Assembly (NCBI RefSeq): GCF_002156705.1
Contig: NZ_CP019893.1
Span: forward strand, 1,984,001-2,048,000
Reading direction: 5' to 3'
Source: Natrarchaeobaculum aegyptiacum
GTDB taxonomy: Archaea > Halobacteriota > Halobacteria > Halobacteriales > Natrialbaceae
DNA: 64,000 nucleotides
Shown: piece after piece, positions 7,364 to 46,775 of the stretch
How the letters are laid out: every line of letters starts with the position of its first letter
How positions within the stretch are numbered: the stretch's first letter is position 1
Notes under the pieces: model-generated
Seen by the model: only the letters and a program-made list of their open reading frames with translations
The model's database searches: none
Told to the model about the DNA's origin: nothing
Position numbers and translations under genes: made by a program

Positions 7364-10300
7364 ATGTTTCGGAGCAGTTCTGAACTAGGGCCGTCGCGAA
7401 AGTGTCGGTCGGCACGATCAGGTGGATGGTTGAAACCGGATCGAGGGACGAGGGTCGTGTTGTCGATTCTGCTGATAGCGATGGTAGCGCTTGTGGGCGG
7501 GATTTCAGGCGTGGTCGCCGACGGGGAGACCGAGGACGGCTGGCCCCAGTACCAGTCCGACACCACCAACACGGGAGCGATCGATGCGTCGGGACCTGAA
7601 GACGAACTGTCGACGGCGTGGAGCGCACTGGACGATCACGTACACTCGAGCCCCGCTATCGTTGACGATGTTGTCTACGTGGGTAGCAACGACGGATCCG
7701 TCTACGCGCTGGACGCGGACGATGGCGACGAGAACTGGTCGCTGGAGATCGGAGATGGTGTTGACTCGTCGCCCGTCGTAGACCAGGGCGTGGTCTACGT
7801 TGGAAACGACAGCGGCGGCCTCTTCGCGATTGACGCTGACACCGGCGACGAGGTGTGGGCGCACACGTTCGACGTCGGTGGGTTTACGGAGTCCGCAAAG
7901 GCGGTGTCCACGCCAGCGATCTCCGATGGGTACGTGTTCGCTCACGTCGGAAACGGTCTACACGCACACGACGCCACCGACGGGGCCGAACAGTGGAACG
8001 CGACCTCCGGACACAATTCCGGCACCCCTCCCGCCCCGACGGTGGCTGGCGGCGTCGTCTACGTCGGTGCCGGATTTGACGACCACAGGGGTCGCGGTGG
8101 GTACGTCCGTGGTTTCGATGTCGACGACGGGACCGAGGTATTCTCGCCAACGTTCTGGCCTCAAGCGGACGGCTCGCCAGCCGTGGAAGACGATACGCTC
8201 TATCTCGGTGGAGGTGGCGCGACCAGCGGGTACATGTACGCGATCAACGTCGAGACGGAGTCCGAGGAATGGAGAGACGATAGGGAAGGGAGCAAGACCG
8301 CACCGACAGTCGTCGACGAAACGGTGTACTTCGGAAATAGCGAGGCTGGAATTGGTTCGGAATACCACGTAGTCGCACTGAACGCGACGACCAACGAAGA
8401 GAAGTGGACCTTCGAGCTCGCGCACCGAATCGACGGCTCGCCAGCCGTCGTCGACGGGCGCGTGTACGCCACCGACTACTATGGCAACGTCTACACGCTC
8501 GATGCGGAGAGCGGTGATCTACTGGAATCGACCCAACTCCGAGACCCGGACGACTCGAGTACGATGTTCACCTCGCCCGTCGTAACTGGGGATACCGTCT
8601 ACCTCGGGGCGAACGTTTTCGCTAGCGACGACGACACGTTCTACGCGTTGCGCGACGGCGACGGTCTCGTTTCCCCTGACCTCGAGGTCGCCTCCGCGAC
8701 ACTCAGTGATGACGAACTCAAAGCGGACGAGTCGGTAACGATCACCGTAAAGATCGCGAACGACGGCGACGCGGTCGGAACGCACACCGCCGAACTCGAG
8801 GTCGACGGCGACGTCGAGGCCACCGAAACGGTCTCGGTCGACGGAGGCTCCACGACGGAGGTCACGTTCACCCACACCTTCGACGAGACTGGTGAGTTCG
8901 ACGTTCACGTCGACGGCCTCGAGGCGGGTACCGTCACGGTCACCGCGGACGAGGAATCGTCCCAGTCGCCGACCCCTTCAGTACCATCCGGTTCGATATC
9001 CGGCCCGTCGTCGCTTCCGCCGCTCGATCCGGTATCCGAACCAGTAATCTCGGTCGACCCGCTCGAGTCCGGCGCAGCCGTCACGGTGACGGACGCGGTC
9101 GCACACGAACCGACCGCGATCTCGCTCGAGGACGGCGCCGGGACCGACGACACCTCGCTCACCCAGCTCGCGGTGACGCCCGCGACGGACACCGACTTCG
9201 ACGTGACGGTGGTAACCAGCGACGACCTCTCGGACGACGTCGACGAGTTGCCGGACGACGCAGCGCTCTTGCAGGCGCTCGAGGTGGAGTCCTCGCTCGA
9301 GCGCGACGAGATCGAAAACGCGACGTTCGAGTTCGTCGTCACGGCCGACGAACTGGAAGAGCGTGGGCTCGAGCCCGAGGACGTGACGCTGTACCACGAC
9401 GTCGACGGGGAGTGGGTCGAACGCGAGACAGAAATCGCTGCCTACCCTGGCGACATGTGGGAGGAAGCTGGTGCCGACCATCCCGAAGCGCTCTTCCCGG
9501 GCGATCACTGGGCAGAAACCGAGCCGGCCGAAGATCTCTTCCCGGGCGATCACTGGACGGAAGCCGAGACAGCCGAGGACCTCTTCCCGGGAGACCATTG
9601 GGAGGAAGCAGGCGTGGATGATCCGGACGCGCTCTTCCCCGAGGAGCGGATCGAAGCAGCCGAGAAGGCCGAAGATCTCTTCCCGGGTGATCACTGGGCG
9701 GAAGCCGAGACGGCCGAGGACCTCTTCCCAGGTGATCATTGGGAGGAAGCAGGCGTCGACGATCCGGACGCGCTCTTCCCCGGCGACACGTGGGAGGAAG
9801 CCGAGACAGCCGAAGATCTCTTCCCCAGCGACACGTGGGAGGAAGCCGAGACAGCCGAAGATCTCTTCCCCGGCGACACGTGGGAGGAGGCCGAAACTGC
9901 CGAGGACCTCTTTCCCGGTGACACGTGGGAGGAGGCGTACCCCGGTGACATGTGGGATACCGTCACCTACGAAGCCGAGACGCCCCACTTCTCGGCGTTC
10001 GCCCTCGCCGCAGATCGCCCTGGTCTCGAGGTGGACGCACCGTCGATCTCGCCCACAGAGCCGTCGGCCGGCGAGGAGCTAACGATCGAAACGACGGTCA
10101 CAAACGACCGCAGCACACCCGACGAGATCGACCTCCTCCTCGAGGTCGACGGGACGGTCGTGACGACGAAGACCGTCTCTCTCGAGCCGGATGAGAAACG
10201 CCTCGTCACGTTCACGCACACGTTCGACGAACCCGGCGTGTTCGACGTTCGCGTCGGCGACCTCGAGGTCGGTACGGTGACGGTCGACGCCGAGACGGAC

Positions 10301-10459
10301 GAGGACGGGACTGGCGACGACGCGGCCGACGAGGGTGGAGCCGCCGAAGACGGAACCGATGGCGTCCCCGGATTCGGCGTTCTCGTAACCGTCGCCGTGA
10401 TGCTCGTCGTCGCGACGCTGTTCGCTGCCGTGACGCGCTCGACCCGTCCCCGACCGTAG
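7364..10459 (+). CDS. Exported PQQ-type propeller protein with CARDB, PGF-pre-PGF and PGF-CTERM anchor
   Basis: 1031 aa. A basic N-terminus and a hydrophobic helix (~29-48) ending VVADG form a Sec signal. Residues ~60-430 carry propeller blades (VVDDVVYVGSNDGSVYALD and variants). A CARDB-type domain follows (~440-530), then a PGF-pre-PGF-like domain (~565-880, ending YEAETPHFSAFAL) whose last loop holds a 171-residue tandem repeat. A second CARDB domain (~885-970), an acidic spacer and VPGFGVLVTVAVMLVV with a basic tail (~1000-1031) complete it. PGF-CTERM signals are processed by archaeosortase A and attached to membrane lipid in haloarchaea, so this should be a cell-surface protein. The ATG at 7364 sits 1 bp after the upstream stop; an in-frame start at 7328 would overlap that gene. 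Confidence 0.9.
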   Translation: MFRSSSELGPSRKCRSARSGGWLKPDRGTRVVLSILLIAMVALVGGISGVVADGETEDGWPQYQSDTTNTGAIDASGPEDELSTAWSALDDHVHSSPAIVDDVVYVGSNDGSVYALDADDGDENWSLEIGDGVDSSPVVDQGVVYVGNDSGGLFAIDADTGDEVWAHTFDVGGFTESAKAVSTPAISDGYVFAHVGNGLHAHDATDGAEQWNATSGHNSGTPPAPTVAGGVVYVGAGFDDHRGRGGYVRGFDVDDGTEVFSPTFWPQADGSPAVEDDTLYLGGGGATSGYMYAINVETESEEWRDDREGSKTAPTVVDETVYFGNSEAGIGSEYHVVALNATTNEEKWTFELAHRIDGSPAVVDGRVYATDYYGNVYTLDAESGDLLESTQLRDPDDSSTMFTSPVVTGDTVYLGANVFASDDDTFYALRDGDGLVSPDLEVASATLSDDELKADESVTITVKIANDGDAVGTHTAELEVDGDVEATETVSVDGGSTTEVTFTHTFDETGEFDVHVDGLEAGTVTVTADEESSQSPTPSVPSGSISGPSSLPPLDPVSEPVISVDPLESGAAVTVTDAVAHEPTAISLEDGAGTDDTSLTQLAVTPATDTDFDVTVVTSDDLSDDVDELPDDAALLQALEVESSLERDEIENATFEFVVTADELEERGLEPEDVTLYHDVDGEWVERETEIAAYPGDMWEEAGADHPEALFPGDHWAETEPAEDLFPGDHWTEAETAEDLFPGDHWEEAGVDDPDALFPEERIEAAEKAEDLFPGDHWAEAETAEDLFPGDHWEEAGVDDPDALFPGDTWEEAETAEDLFPSDTWEEAETAEDLFPGDTWEEAETAEDLFPGDTWEEAYPGDMWDTVTYEAETPHFSAFALAADRPGLEVDAPSISPTEPSAGEELTIETTVTNDRSTPDEIDLLLEVDGTVVTTKTVSLEPDEKRLVTFTHTFDEPGVFDVRVGDLEVGTVTVDAETDEDGTGDDAADEGGAAEDGTDGVPGFGVLVTVAVMLVVATLFAAVTRSTRPRP
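9443..9955 (+). repeat. Coding tandem repeat, consensus FPGD(H/T)WEEAETAEDL
   Basis: About ten units of 15 or 17 residues (45 or 51 bp) inside the surface protein. Most begin FPGDHW or FPGDTW and end AEDL, with a 17-residue variant ending VDDPDAL occurring twice. The array begins and ends with YPGDMW. One unit (FPEERIEAAEKAEDL) has diverged. The last four units are nearly identical, which suggests recent expansion at the 3' side. Confidence 0.95.
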
Positions 10460-10552
10460 CGAATCGGATCACCGTCGGTCACACACGACGGCGACCGGTC
10501 GGCTCGAGGCGGTGGCCTCGACCATTTCTCCCGAAAACTCCGAGACTACTCC

Positions 10553-11692
10553 CTACCACAGCCACGTCTCCGCTACCCGCCGGTAGGTCTCGGAACAGCG
10601 CTCGAGCACCGCCACCGACACACTTTCGTCCGCCGTGTGGGCTTCGCCGGGCTCTGCGGGACCGCAGATAACGCACTCGGTGCCGGCCTCGGAAAGCCAG
10701 CCGGCGTCGGTCGCGTGCGGCTTGGTCACGAGTTCCGGCGTCTCCGCCTGGGCGGCGTCGGCGGCCTCGAGCACCGTCTCGGCGAACGCGTCGTCGCCAC
10801 ACCGCATCGGCGGGACGTCCTGGTCGACGCGCACGGAGACGCCCTCGACGTCCTCGACGCGCTCGAGCGGCGCGCGTTCGCCCGGAACCGTCCGCTCGTC
10901 GATCGTCACCGTACACTGGTCGGGAACGACGTTCATCGCGGTCCCGCCTTCGATTTCGGTGACCGTCAGGCTCCCCTCGAGTGCTTCCCCCGCGATCTCG
11001 ACGCCCGGCGGTGATTCGGCGAGGTTCCGGACGATCGAGACGGCCTCCGTGGCCCGGTAGATGGCGTTTTCGCCCTCGCCGATCTCGCTCGCGTGGGCGG
11101 CGCTTCCGGTCGCCTCGATCGTACTCCCGCGGCGACCCTTGTGGGCGACGGCGACGTCGGTCGTTCCGGGGCTCGAGTAACCGGTCGAGCCCTCGCCGAC
11201 GATGGCGTAGTCGGGCGCGAAGCCCTCCTCGATGGCGTGCCGTGCGCCGACGCCGCCGACTTCCTCGCCGACGAAGCTGGCGAAGACGAGTTCACCCGCC
11301 GGGTCGCCGTCGCCGGACGGCTCTGGACTGCTCGAGGTGCCGGGAACCTCGCTGTCGCGGAACGCGAGCATGGCCGCGGCGACTGCGCCTTTCATGTCTG
11401 CCGTCCCGCGGCCGTAGAGACGGCCGTCGCGTTCCTCGACGACGTACTCGCCGTCGTCGTCGATCCGCACCTGCTCGTCGGTGGGTTCGACGACGTCGTG
11501 GTGACCCACGAGTGCGAGCGACGGGTCGCCCGCTCCCCGGCGAGCGATGACGTTGCCGACGTCGTCCCGTCGGACCGTCGCGTTCGTCTCCGCGCGGAGC
11601 CACTCCTCGATGGCGTCGCCGACTGCCGTCTCGTCGTCGTGGCTCGGAATCGACGCGAGATCGCGCGTCAGCGCTACGAGTTCACTGCTCAT
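10553..11692 (-). CDS. M20 family metallopeptidase (DapE/ArgE-like)
   Basis: 379 aa cytosolic di-zinc hydrolase. Visible family motifs are VGHHDVVEP (first His ligand), GRGTADMKG (bridging Asp), SFVGEEVGGVGAR (catalytic and ligand Glu pair), a dimerisation lid segment, and PGEAHTADE near the C-terminus (last His ligand). The enzyme would hydrolyse an amide such as N-acyl amino acids or N-succinyl-diaminopimelate. The exact substrate cannot be read from the sequence, and no lysine or arginine biosynthesis genes are adjacent. It ends about 90 bp beyond the convergent propeller gene. Confidence 0.88.
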   Translation of the reverse strand: MSSELVALTRDLASIPSHDDETAVGDAIEEWLRAETNATVRRDDVGNVIARRGAGDPSLALVGHHDVVEPTDEQVRIDDDGEYVVEERDGRLYGRGTADMKGAVAAAMLAFRDSEVPGTSSSPEPSGDGDPAGELVFASFVGEEVGGVGARHAIEEGFAPDYAIVGEGSTGYSSPGTTDVAVAHKGRRGSTIEATGSAAHASEIGEGENAIYRATEAVSIVRNLAESPPGVEIAGEALEGSLTVTEIEGGTAMNVVPDQCTVTIDERTVPGERAPLERVEDVEGVSVRVDQDVPPMRCGDDAFAETVLEAADAAQAETPELVTKPHATDAGWLSEAGTECVICGPAEPGEAHTADESVSVAVLERCSETYRRVAETWLW

Positions 11693-11725: not shown

Positions 11726-13366
11726 TTACCGCTCGAGGTTCTCCACCGGGCCGGCGTACATCGCGGAGACGTCTTCGTCGTCGGTGAGCCGCGAGACCGT
11801 TTCGTCGACGGCTGCGAGACTGGCGGTCTGTTCCTGACTGGCGGCGGCGACCGACTCGGCGGCGGCAGCGACGCGATCGGCGGTATCGGCGATTTCGTCG
11901 ACGGTGTTGGCAGCCCGTTCGACGTTCCGGGCCTGCTGGTCGGTCGCCGTCGCCACGTCCTCGACGCTCGCGGCCGTTTCGCTCGCCGCCTCGTGGATCG
12001 TCTCGAGCGAGCCGATCGTCTCGCGCACTCGGTCGGTTCCCTGGTCGACCCGCTCGGCAGCGTCTTCGGTGGCGGCTGCGGCCTCGTCGGCCTCCTCTCG
12101 AACGGCCGTCACGGCCGCCTCGATCGCCTCGACGTCGGTGCGCGTCTGGGCGGCGAACGACTCGACCTCGTCGGCGATGACGGCCATCGGACCGGCCCCC
12201 TCGCCGGTCGACCGGCTGGCCTCGATCTTTGCGTTCTTCGCGAGGATCGACGTCCGTTCGGTGACGTCCTCGAGTCGCTCGAGTGCTGCGTCGATCTCGT
12301 CGGTTCGGGCCTCGAGTCTGGCTGCTGCCTCTGCAGCCCGGTCGGTCGCGGCCTCGATCGCTGCGAGTTCGGAGACGGTCTCGTCGGCCGAATCGACGCC
12401 CGCGGCCGCCAGTCGCTCGGTTCGCGTACTCTCCTGGTGGACCTCTGTGGCAGCACTGGCGATCTCTTCGACGGCGGCGCTCACCTCGGCCAGTTCCGCC
12501 GCCACGTCGTCGACGGCGACTGCCTGCGTCGAGGTGTGATCGCTGATCGCTTCCGCTCGCCCGGCGACGACCTGACTCGCCTCGTGGAGTTCTCCGATCG
12601 GTCCCTGCACGTCGGTCTCGACGTCTTTTGCCAGTCGCTGCTGGCGCTCGATCGCCCGCTCGAGTCGCTGGGCGTAGGCGTCGACGTAAGTGTCGGCGGC
12701 GACCTGCATGTCGAGGTTGACGATCCGCAACAGCGCGAGGACGTCCATCATTCCGTCGTCGATCGCCTCCCGGATGGTCGCCTCGAACCCGGCCTCGAGC
12801 CCGTCCTGTTCCGTCTCGCCACCGAACCCGAGCGCGCTGGCCAGTCCACCGAGTCCGCCCGCGTCGTCCTGTTCGGCGGCCCACTCTTCGACGGCGTCGA
12901 CGACCTGCTGCTGAATCCGCTCGTTCAACTGCTCGAGCAGCAGGTCGTAGTAGACGCCGTACTGCCCGAGGTAGTGTTTCAGCGGCATGTCGAGCAGTTC
13001 GTGAAGTTTGCCGATCCGGGCGCGCTGTTCGAAGTACCGCCGGTCGTATTCGCCGCCTGCGAGCGAGACGAGATAGTCTCGCTGGGTCTCCTTGAGTGCC
13101 TCGACGCCCTTCGGCGAACGGCCGACGATTTCCCGAGCGGAGTCGTGGGCCAGCAGGTTGTCGTAGAAGTCGTCGGCGATCCGGTCGCTGTTCGCCCGGA
13201 GAAGCGGCTCGAGGTCGGCCAGCCGTTCGGCGTCGGTTTCGTCGAAGCCGACGAACTCCTTTCGCCAGGCAATCTCATCGTCGTCGAGTCCGACGTTTTC
13301 GACCAGCTGCGCGACGTCGACGTATTCGTTCAGTCCACCGCGTCCAAACGTCTCCTCCGGGTCCAT
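11726..13366 (-). CDS. Globin-coupled soluble transducer (HemAT-type aerotaxis protein)
   Basis: 546 aa without membrane helices. Residues ~20-190 are a protoglobin sensor: the stretch RIGKLHELLDMPLKHYLGQY contains the expected proximal histidine of the F helix. A long coiled coil leads to a methyl-accepting signalling domain whose hairpin reads TSILAKNAKIEASRS, a diverged form of the usual NLLALNAAIEAAR motif. Known HemAT proteins sense oxygen through heme and signal to CheA. The ATG at 13366 (MDPEETFGRGG) is preferred to an upstream one at 13486 that adds 40 basic residues. No other che genes lie in the window, so it must act on a distant array. Confidence 0.9.
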   Translation of the reverse strand: MDPEETFGRGGLNEYVDVAQLVENVGLDDDEIAWRKEFVGFDETDAERLADLEPLLRANSDRIADDFYDNLLAHDSAREIVGRSPKGVEALKETQRDYLVSLAGGEYDRRYFEQRARIGKLHELLDMPLKHYLGQYGVYYDLLLEQLNERIQQQVVDAVEEWAAEQDDAGGLGGLASALGFGGETEQDGLEAGFEATIREAIDDGMMDVLALLRIVNLDMQVAADTYVDAYAQRLERAIERQQRLAKDVETDVQGPIGELHEASQVVAGRAEAISDHTSTQAVAVDDVAAELAEVSAAVEEIASAATEVHQESTRTERLAAAGVDSADETVSELAAIEAATDRAAEAAARLEARTDEIDAALERLEDVTERTSILAKNAKIEASRSTGEGAGPMAVIADEVESFAAQTRTDVEAIEAAVTAVREEADEAAAATEDAAERVDQGTDRVRETIGSLETIHEAASETAASVEDVATATDQQARNVERAANTVDEIADTADRVAAAAESVAAASQEQTASLAAVDETVSRLTDDEDVSAMYAGPVENLER

Positions 13367-13543
13367 ACCGGACGCTCTCGCTTTCGTTCCTAAAACGAAT
13401 CGGAAAATTCTCGGCGGACAGGATTCCTTCGAAACTCCACCGTTCCCGTCACGGTATCGTGGTGGGGGTTCACAGGGGTCGTACAAGAGTGCCGTTCGAT
13501 CGTCTCCCGCACCCTTTTACGCGCTGGCTCCGAATTTACCGAC

Positions 13544-45520: not shown

Positions 45521-46470
45521 GCGACGTTCTCGCGATCACGGACCACCGTCAGGGCGAACTGCGCGACGTCAGCTACGAGATCGTCTCCGCCGGCCGCGAC
45601 CTCGCCGACCAGACCGGCGGCGACCTCCACCTCGCGGTGATCAACGGCGACGTCGACGCTTTCGCCGCCGACGTCAACCGCGACGGCGTCGACGCCATCC
45701 ACACCGTCGACGAGGGTGAGGAGTTCGACCACGGCGTCTACGCACAGGCAACCGCCCAGCTCTACGACGAGCTCGCGCCGCAGTACGTTCTCACGCCGAA
45801 CAGCGTCAACGGCCTCGACTACGCTCCCGCGGTAGCGGCGGACCTCGACCTGCCGATCGTCACCGACGCCGTCGGCCTCAGCGCAGACGGCGACGCGCTG
45901 ACGGTCACCCGCGAGATGTTCGGCGGCAAGGTCGAGACGACGACCGACCTCGAGGGGCAGGCGATCGTGACGATCCGCGAGGCCGAGTGGGCGGTCGCGG
46001 AGGGTGACGGCGACGCGCCGATCGAGGCGTTCGACGCCGACATCGACGAAGGTGCCCTCGGGGCGACGATCACCGGCTTCGAGGAGGTCGGCGGGGGCGA
46101 CGTCGACATCAGCGAGGCGGACGTGCTCGTCTCCGTTGGCCGTGGGATCGAAGAGGAAGACAACCTGCCGATCATCGAGGAACTGGCCGAGGCGCTCGAT
46201 GCGACGGTCTCCTCGTCGCGCCCGATCGTCGACAACGGCTGGCTGCCGAAGAACCGGCAGGTCGGCCAGTCCGGGAAGGTCGTCACGCCGGACGTCTACA
46301 TCGCGATCGGTATCTCCGGTGCCGTCCAGCACGTCGCCGGGATGAAAGGCTCCGACACGATCGTGGCGATCAACACGGACCCCAACGCGCCGATCATGGA
46401 CATCGCCGACTACGCGATCCACGACGACCTCTTCGACGTGGTGCCGGCGCTGACCGAAGAGTTCCAGTAA
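45517..46470 (+). CDS. etfA: Electron transfer flavoprotein alpha subunit
   Basis: 317 aa. The C-terminal FAD domain is unmistakable: SSRPIVDNGWLPKNRQVGQS, GISGAVQHVAGMKGSDTIVA and INTDPNAPIMDIADYAIHDD. The N-terminal domain is of the ETF alpha/beta type. It is coupled to etfB by a 4-bp overlap. The last 36 coding bases and the following 121 bp are duplicated 184 bp downstream. Confidence 0.97.
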   Translation: MSDVLAITDHRQGELRDVSYEIVSAGRDLADQTGGDLHLAVINGDVDAFAADVNRDGVDAIHTVDEGEEFDHGVYAQATAQLYDELAPQYVLTPNSVNGLDYAPAVAADLDLPIVTDAVGLSADGDALTVTREMFGGKVETTTDLEGQAIVTIREAEWAVAEGDGDAPIEAFDADIDEGALGATITGFEEVGGGDVDISEADVLVSVGRGIEEEDNLPIIEELAEALDATVSSSRPIVDNGWLPKNRQVGQSGKVVTPDVYIAIGISGAVQHVAGMKGSDTIVAINTDPNAPIMDIADYAIHDDLFDVVPALTEEFQ

Positions 46471-46591
46471 CGACCGCGAACGAACGCGGTGAGTGAGCGG
46501 CATTTCTCGGGAACGAGGGCTCGGAAGAACCCCGTTCTTCCGACGTTTTTTGGTCGAGATTTTTTGCGCGAGCGGTCACGAACGGCGTGAG
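46435..46591 (+). repeat. Direct repeat, copy 1: end of etfA plus terminator
   Basis: 157 bp; it matches 46619-46775 except at 46460 (a/c) and 46505 (t/c). Confidence 0.95.
46521..46551 (+). terminator. Hairpin plus T6 terminator after etfA, copy 1
   Basis: TCGGAAGAAC pairs with GTTCTTCCGA (10 bp, CCC loop), then CG and six T. Such a complete hairpin-T structure is unusual compared with the plain T-runs common at haloarchaeal gene ends. A second T6 follows at about 46560-46565. Confidence 0.75.
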
Positions 46592-46618
46592 TGACCCGAG
46601 TGGAAAAAAGGTCGTTCT

Positions 46619-46775
46619 GACGTGGTGCCGGCGCTGACCGAAGCGTTCCAGTAACGACCGCGAACGAACGCGGTGAGTGAGCGGCATTCCTCGGGAACGA
46701 GGGCTCGGAAGAACCCCGTTCTTCCGACGTTTTTTGGTCGAGATTTTTTGCGCGAGCGGTCACGAACGGCGTGAG
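46619..46775 (+). repeat. Direct repeat, copy 2, downstream of etfA
   Basis: Second copy of 46435-46591, offset by 184 bp, leaving 27 bp between copies. It encodes the last 11 residues of EtfA and a stop but is not attached to a gene. Confidence 0.95.
46705..46735 (+). terminator. Hairpin plus T6 terminator, copy 2
   Basis: Identical to the hairpin at 46521-46551, carried inside the second repeat copy. Confidence 0.65.

Follow-up and report, generated by a model that had tools for sequence, protein, structure and literature searches.

The ZU5, GAIN and FIIND folds belong to one superfamily (PMC3482391). The canonical cleavage sequence is H-X-S/T, and flaps beside the site of GAIN domains have been found to affect cleavage (PMC13062082). 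In BAI3, R855 occupies position GPS-2, and hence S857 is the residue after the cleavage point (PMC13062082). Rat NLRP1 is cleaved at F968|S969, and in FIIND domains the histidine is located elsewhere, at H942 in rat NLRP1 (PMC8081665).

Here we describe a haloarchaeal surface protein whose PGF-pre-PGF domain is interrupted by a tandem array rich in tryptophan and acidic residues. The gene lies in a window of 64,000 nucleotides, the whole stretch of DNA analysed, which covers positions 1984001-2048000 of its contig; the features of the gene are collected in Table 1. The array is almost certainly a genuine, lineage-specific repeat expansion within one loop. Taken as a whole, the observations are best explained, by a modest preference, by an array grown through recombination, kept by selection and placed in a hairpin loop of a domain of ZU5/GAIN/FIIND fold, where it would form a flexible surface loop for multivalent binding.

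Table 1. Features of the host gene and its surroundings (window coordinates)
Feature	Position	Strand	Basis
Accessory cassette: regulator, PQQ protein, membrane protein, SnoaL-like protein, host gene (limits approximate)	2580..10554		Missing from genus-mates
Host gene, 1031-aa surface protein, ATG start	7364..10459	+	Open frame, codon-position GC pattern
Hydrophobic N-terminal segment, probable signal peptide, VVLSILLIAMVALVGGISGVVA	7454..7519	+	Sequence by eye
PQQ-type beta-propeller	7616..8605	+	PF13360, E 1.4e-58
CARDB domain 1	8672..8911	+	PF07705, residues 449-528
PGF-pre-PGF domain, pre-array part	9035..9442	+	TIGR04213, residues 610-703; AF2 pLDDT mostly above 90
Repeat array, 10 full units of 15 or 17 residues, truncated unit and YPGDMW	9443..9955	+	Tandem Repeats Finder, unit table
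PGF-pre-PGF domain, post-array part with TPHFSAFAL	9956..10024	+	Sequence; structural alignment to GAIN/FIIND chain ends
PHFS residues, candidate F/S scissile bond	H 9986-9988, F 9989-9991, S 9992-9994	+	Structural alignment to GAIN/FIIND chain ends
CARDB-like domain 2 (limits approximate)	10025..10290	+	Second PF07705 stretch; match to a genus-mate
PGF-CTERM-like sorting tail, GVPGFGVLVTVAVMLVVATLFAAVTRSTRPRP	10361..10456	+	TIGR04126, 20.7 bits

Host protein, array and gene neighbourhood

The modules of the host protein follow each other in the order PQQ propeller, CARDB, PGF-pre-PGF with the array, CARDB and PGF-CTERM-like tail. An alternative TTG start at 7328 would lengthen the protein by 12 residues. 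Residues 97-426 of the propeller resemble TIGR03300 with a score under the cut-off of that family. Membership of the PGF-pre-PGF family is established by a TIGR04213 score of 34.7 bits against a curated cut-off of 28; in the genome search the same domain matched with 29 bits over positions 31-129. The protein is probably secreted, and its C-terminus consists of PGF, a hydrophobic stretch and arginines. Anchoring by an archaeosortase is likely, with its own tail below the TIGR04126 cut-off of 24.5 and the tails of two relatives, G109 (26.4) and G113 (34.0), above it.

The array comprises 171 residues in an intact reading frame. It opens with YPGDMWEEAGADHPEAL and continues in units of the form FPGD(H/T)WEEAETAEDL or FPGDHWEEAGVDDPDAL. 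Three of the full units have 17 residues and seven have 15; one of the units, FPEERIEAAEKAEDL, is without the usual G and W. The truncated unit is FPGDTWEEA, of 9 residues, and the array is closed by the hexad YPGDMW, after which the protein resumes with DTVTYEAETPHFSAFAL. Tandem Repeats Finder reported the array at 9458-9933, with 9.8 copies at a period of 45 bp (score 331) and 3.1 copies at a period of 141 bp (score 529). The extent and composition given for the array in the earlier note were thus correct, as was its statement that YPGDMW bounds the array on both sides. The note had also regarded the 3′ units as the most alike and the expansion as possibly continuing; units 8 and 9 indeed share 44 of 45 bases, and units 9 and 10 are 0.87 identical, which supports recent duplication. 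An array of this kind occurs once in the genome, which is a single contig of 3.93 Mb. Among known repeat families, only DUF1413 (PF07205) resembled the window array, and it was rejected, as the match reaches 22.7 bits over 15 residues against a gathering threshold of 25 and amounts to a DLFPGxxW resemblance. A PDB sequence search with the array gave no match.

The position of the array was obtained by comparison with the family. In 22 PGF-pre-PGF domains lacking repeats, about 4-8 residues join the W..LET.VV strand to V.FEAETPGFS.FA, and the window and five relatives have their array at precisely this hairpin junction. In a TIGR04213 census of 125 family genomes, whose list omits the sixth array-bearing domain (G113), five array-bearing domains have matches that end at model position 128-130, against 144-153 for the others. 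The array is inserted in the hairpin loop directly ahead of the final strand of the domain, and it is looped out because both its ends enter adjacent strands of one hairpin. The expansion of a single loop inside a PGF-pre-PGF domain, as proposed in the earlier note, found support in the TIGR04213 match, which ends at the array.

The host gene is a member of an accessory cassette, since the corresponding region of ~7.9 kb is absent at the same place in the genus-mates G003 and G001 and in G107, where about 125-160 bp stand instead. The regulator of the cassette is of the DUF7347/DUF7351 type. In the window genome (G000), G109 and G117, the host gene occupies the same chromosomal place, between an M32 carboxypeptidase region on one side and an M20 peptidase gene on the other; G113, G034 and G085 have no cassette at that place and encode the array protein elsewhere. 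As to a mobile origin, no relative was found among the phages or viral contigs searched, and among plasmids the only matches were a weak one in Streptomyces and a protein of the hexad type in Natrinema halophilum. The protein encoded just past the cassette, at 11729-13486, combines an N-terminal protoglobin domain with an MCP signalling domain and is of the haem-based transducer type. Farther along the window, at 46435-46775, a direct repeat of 184 bp occurs twice with 98% identity, apparently over a gene end and the following intergenic stretch.

Predicted fold and the PHFS motif

With AlphaFold2 (alignment A1), the core of the domain was predicted at pLDDT mostly above 90 and the array at about 40-82. 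A Foldseek search with the predicted domain returned NLRP1 FIIND first (E 6.6e-3) and BAI3 GAIN fourth. In VIA-align 2, the top 15 rows were all GAIN, FIIND or ZU5 (Z 6.7-9.3), as were 18 of the 20 best (Z 5.6-9.3); the first 14 VIA-align rows, again all from these folds, span Z 8.2-9.3, and the first other chain stands at 6.7. The best values were obtained with CD97 GAIN (8ikj, 9.3), rat NLRP1 FIIND (7crw, 9.1), CARD8 (8.8) and BAI3 GAIN (4dlo, 8.7), and ankyrin ZU5 was also matched. These predictions make a ZU5/GAIN/FIIND fold probable for the host domain, with good confidence.

Searches at the sequence level were negative. None of eight genomes contains a match to PF01825 (GPS) above its cut-off of 22.5 bits, Pfam scans for GPS and ZU5 found neither, hhalign of PGF-pre-PGF against two latrophilin GPS sequences gave a probability of 0.1%, and a PDB search with the domain profile retrieved no GAIN or ZU5 chain. 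The host domain contains no cysteine, so the paired cysteines of GPS are missing. The superfamily assignment rests on the predicted fold and a short motif, because the sequence methods show no link. A literature search with few subscription journals among its sources found nothing on archaeal GAIN domains or a PGF-pre-PGF structure. Should the assignment be right, the ZU5/GAIN superfamily would gain a widespread archaeal domain family that has so far had no explanation.

The short motif is PHFS, which all six array-bearing domains carry and which places an H-X-S/T sequence at the scissile position, as judged from the ends of the alignment ranges. No histidine occupies the motif in about 31 PGF-pre-PGF domains lacking repeats. 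Nevertheless, HFS is not tied to the array, since it also occurs in the array-free domains of G114 (L177, a non-repeat member) and G130 (L179, a distant member); HFS as a feature exclusive to array-bearing domains is thereby ruled out. Serine S320 of the model, the serine of PHFS in the window, aligns to S969 of rat NLRP1, S857 of BAI3 and residue 531 of CD97 on the assumption of no gap in the last 9-10 residues; VIA-align reports only ranges, and an ungapped chain end was assumed for these equivalences. Residue 531 of CD97 is what we take to be its cleavage residue. In GAIN domains an aromatic residue, F at S10.49, stacks on the histidine of the motif; by eye, the candidate counterpart in the model is Y120. 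The distant domain L179, with LSFWVYDTDAGTW and VTVPHFSTFAISG, is nearer to the GPS layout (F-W, G-x-W, H-F-S) than that of the window.

The strongest rival explanation would make the host domain a self-cleaving ZU5/GAIN-like module, which cuts at PHF|S with the halves staying joined, the array acting as a flap that sets cleavage or release of the outer part. The predicted fold, the coincidence of S320 with the cleavage-site serines of rat NLRP1 and BAI3, the distribution of HFS and the influence of GAIN flaps (PMC13062082) all speak in its favour. However, the coincidence depends on the assumed ungapped end, HFS extends to the array-free G114 and G130, the GPS cysteines are missing and each of the four sequence searches was without a match. 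Nor does H-X-S/T by itself decide the matter, because FIIND domains take the histidine from elsewhere. We regard this module as possible but rather unlikely, and it could coexist with a binding role of the loop. A more far-reaching proposition is still more doubtful. It would make the PGF-pre-PGF domains with arrays functional self-cleaving ZU5/GAIN modules of archaea, organised like adhesion receptors with variable outer modules, a domain cutting itself at HF|S and an anchored C-terminal piece; the hypervariable W-rich loop beside the scissile strand would bind or sense and control the release of the outer part. Provided that the fold assignment is right, self-cleavage can be tested directly in surface proteins of haloarchaea.

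Growth, selection and possible role of the array

A search of 125 family genomes found seven other genomes that match the array protein. Arrays within the loop are rare and occur in six of the 125, the window included; these represent five genera, and motif and site are common to all. The full units number 10 in the window, 12 in G109, 13 in G117, 28 in Natronosalvus hydrolyticus AArc-curdl1 (G113), 6 in G034 and 8 in Natronobiforma cellulositropha JCM 31939 (G085). The host proteins of N. cellulositropha and Natronosalvus hydrolyticus are 78% identical over 1333 residues and have 8 and 28 units, respectively, so unit number changes between orthologues. An old structure fixed at one copy number, the case set by the earlier note against continuing expansion, is therefore not what is seen among these species. 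The outer modules vary as well, with PQQ propellers in the window protein and G109 and, as judged by eye, beta-helices of the NosD type in G117, G113, G085 and G034. A match of the G117 array to NdhS (27.3 against a cut-off of 27) covers a short domain over parts of neighbouring units and was taken as chance.

The paired [FY]PGxxW pattern was found in 12 of 392 genomes of the order, several of them of a hexad type. The remaining two of the seven genomes that match the array protein, G055 and G006, have a six-residue FPGD type of array in proteins without a PGF-pre-PGF domain. Eight proteins (L060, L061, L066, L067, L068, L069, L072 and L077) are probable Tat-type lipoproteins, with RR and a lipobox-like Cys by eye, and contain hexads in tandem, YPGSMW and FPGDTW among them. 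The hexad lipoproteins are spread over several haloarchaeal families, and one is located on the Natrinema halophilum plasmid NZ_CP084880.1.

In five of the six arrays the best self-match is at a lag of three units (141, 141, 132, 126 and 132 bp), and in the G117 array it is at two units (102 bp). This self-similarity, together with the differing unit numbers of orthologues, indicates that the arrays grow and shrink mainly by recombination between three-unit blocks. Purifying selection keeps the units at [F/Y]PGxxW and an acidic stretch. Of 84 units, all 84 retain F/Y and P, 78 retain G and 80 retain W. The within-array dN/dS is 0.08-0.21 in all six arrays, each value being a mean over pairs of short units that are not independent of one another. 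A selectively neutral product of slippage, with no role of its own, would account for the patchy distribution and for recent near-identical copies, such as units 8 and 9 of the window and units 3 and 6 of G034, which are identical. It is improbable in view of the low dN/dS, of F/Y, P, G and W staying near-invariant despite codon drift and of the motif shared by five genera at one site.

Repeats in surface proteins often act as stalks, and the earlier note had suggested a rod-like spacer; host modules do lie on both sides of the array, which could then keep the outer ones off the membrane. The array, however, leaves and re-enters neighbouring strands of one hairpin, so its length need not alter the distance between the flanking domains and it cannot space those before and after it. 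The array modelled by itself reached a pLDDT of 48 with no confident fold. A rod-like spacer is accordingly disfavoured and quite improbable. Mis-assembly can affect short repeats, but an assembly or collapse artefact is scarcely credible here, as the units are distinct enough for placement, the reading frame is unbroken, the genome forms one contig and five other assemblies carry independent arrays at the same site.

Taken together, these results favour the recombination-grown, selected loop array. In this mechanism, a lineage-specific tandem expansion fills the hairpin loop before the last PGF-pre-PGF strand, it grows and shrinks mainly by recombination of three-unit blocks, and selection holds each unit to its aromatic-acidic motif. 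On the cell surface, a flexible loop would then show many copies of this motif, which may bind multivalently, each weakly, to a cell, matrix or polysaccharide, and the number of units might tune reach and avidity. Binding of a ligand by the array is plausible, and we put forward only tentatively that the loop is a multivalent binding element in which W and acidic residues are shown many times over. The names of two array-bearing species, Natronosalvus hydrolyticus AArc-curdl1 and Natronobiforma cellulositropha, point to the use of polysaccharides, which is only a hint. As the array ends at the strand with H-F-S, a link to self-cleavage is possible. Whichever role applies, arrays of 6-28 units at one site, including the orthologues with 8 and 28, offer a natural series for studying the growth of an archaeal surface loop.

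Comparison with known systems

With the other members of the PGF-pre-PGF family (TIGR04213), the window domain has in common the invariant W and the FS-x-FA core. It differs from them by 171 repeat residues in place of a short hairpin loop and by PHFS where the members usually have PGFS or PGLS. The lipoprotein arrays of (F/Y)PG(D/S)xW hexads present the FPGxxW core in tandem, as the window array does. Their period, however, is six residues and no PGF-pre-PGF domain is seen in them, whereas the window array is built of 15/17-residue units inside such a domain.

Adhesion GPCRs, NLRP1, CARD8, ankyrin and UNC5b are the named ZU5/GAIN/FIIND systems, and the predicted fold of the host domain is similar (Z up to 9.3). 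The window protein further resembles these systems in that HFS stands where they have the cleavage motif, ahead of a C-terminal piece on the membrane side. It is distinguished from them by the lack of a detectable sequence match and of the GPS cysteines and by a W-repeat loop that precedes the candidate scissile strand. The bacterial surface ZU5 proteins (Zhang et al. 2012, PMC3482391) are also large and combine adhesion or propeller modules with a domain predicted to be self-cleaving. They have a CxH motif in a toxin context, while the protein of the window is archaeal, has H-F-S and a PGF-CTERM-like tail, and no toxin domain is seen in it.
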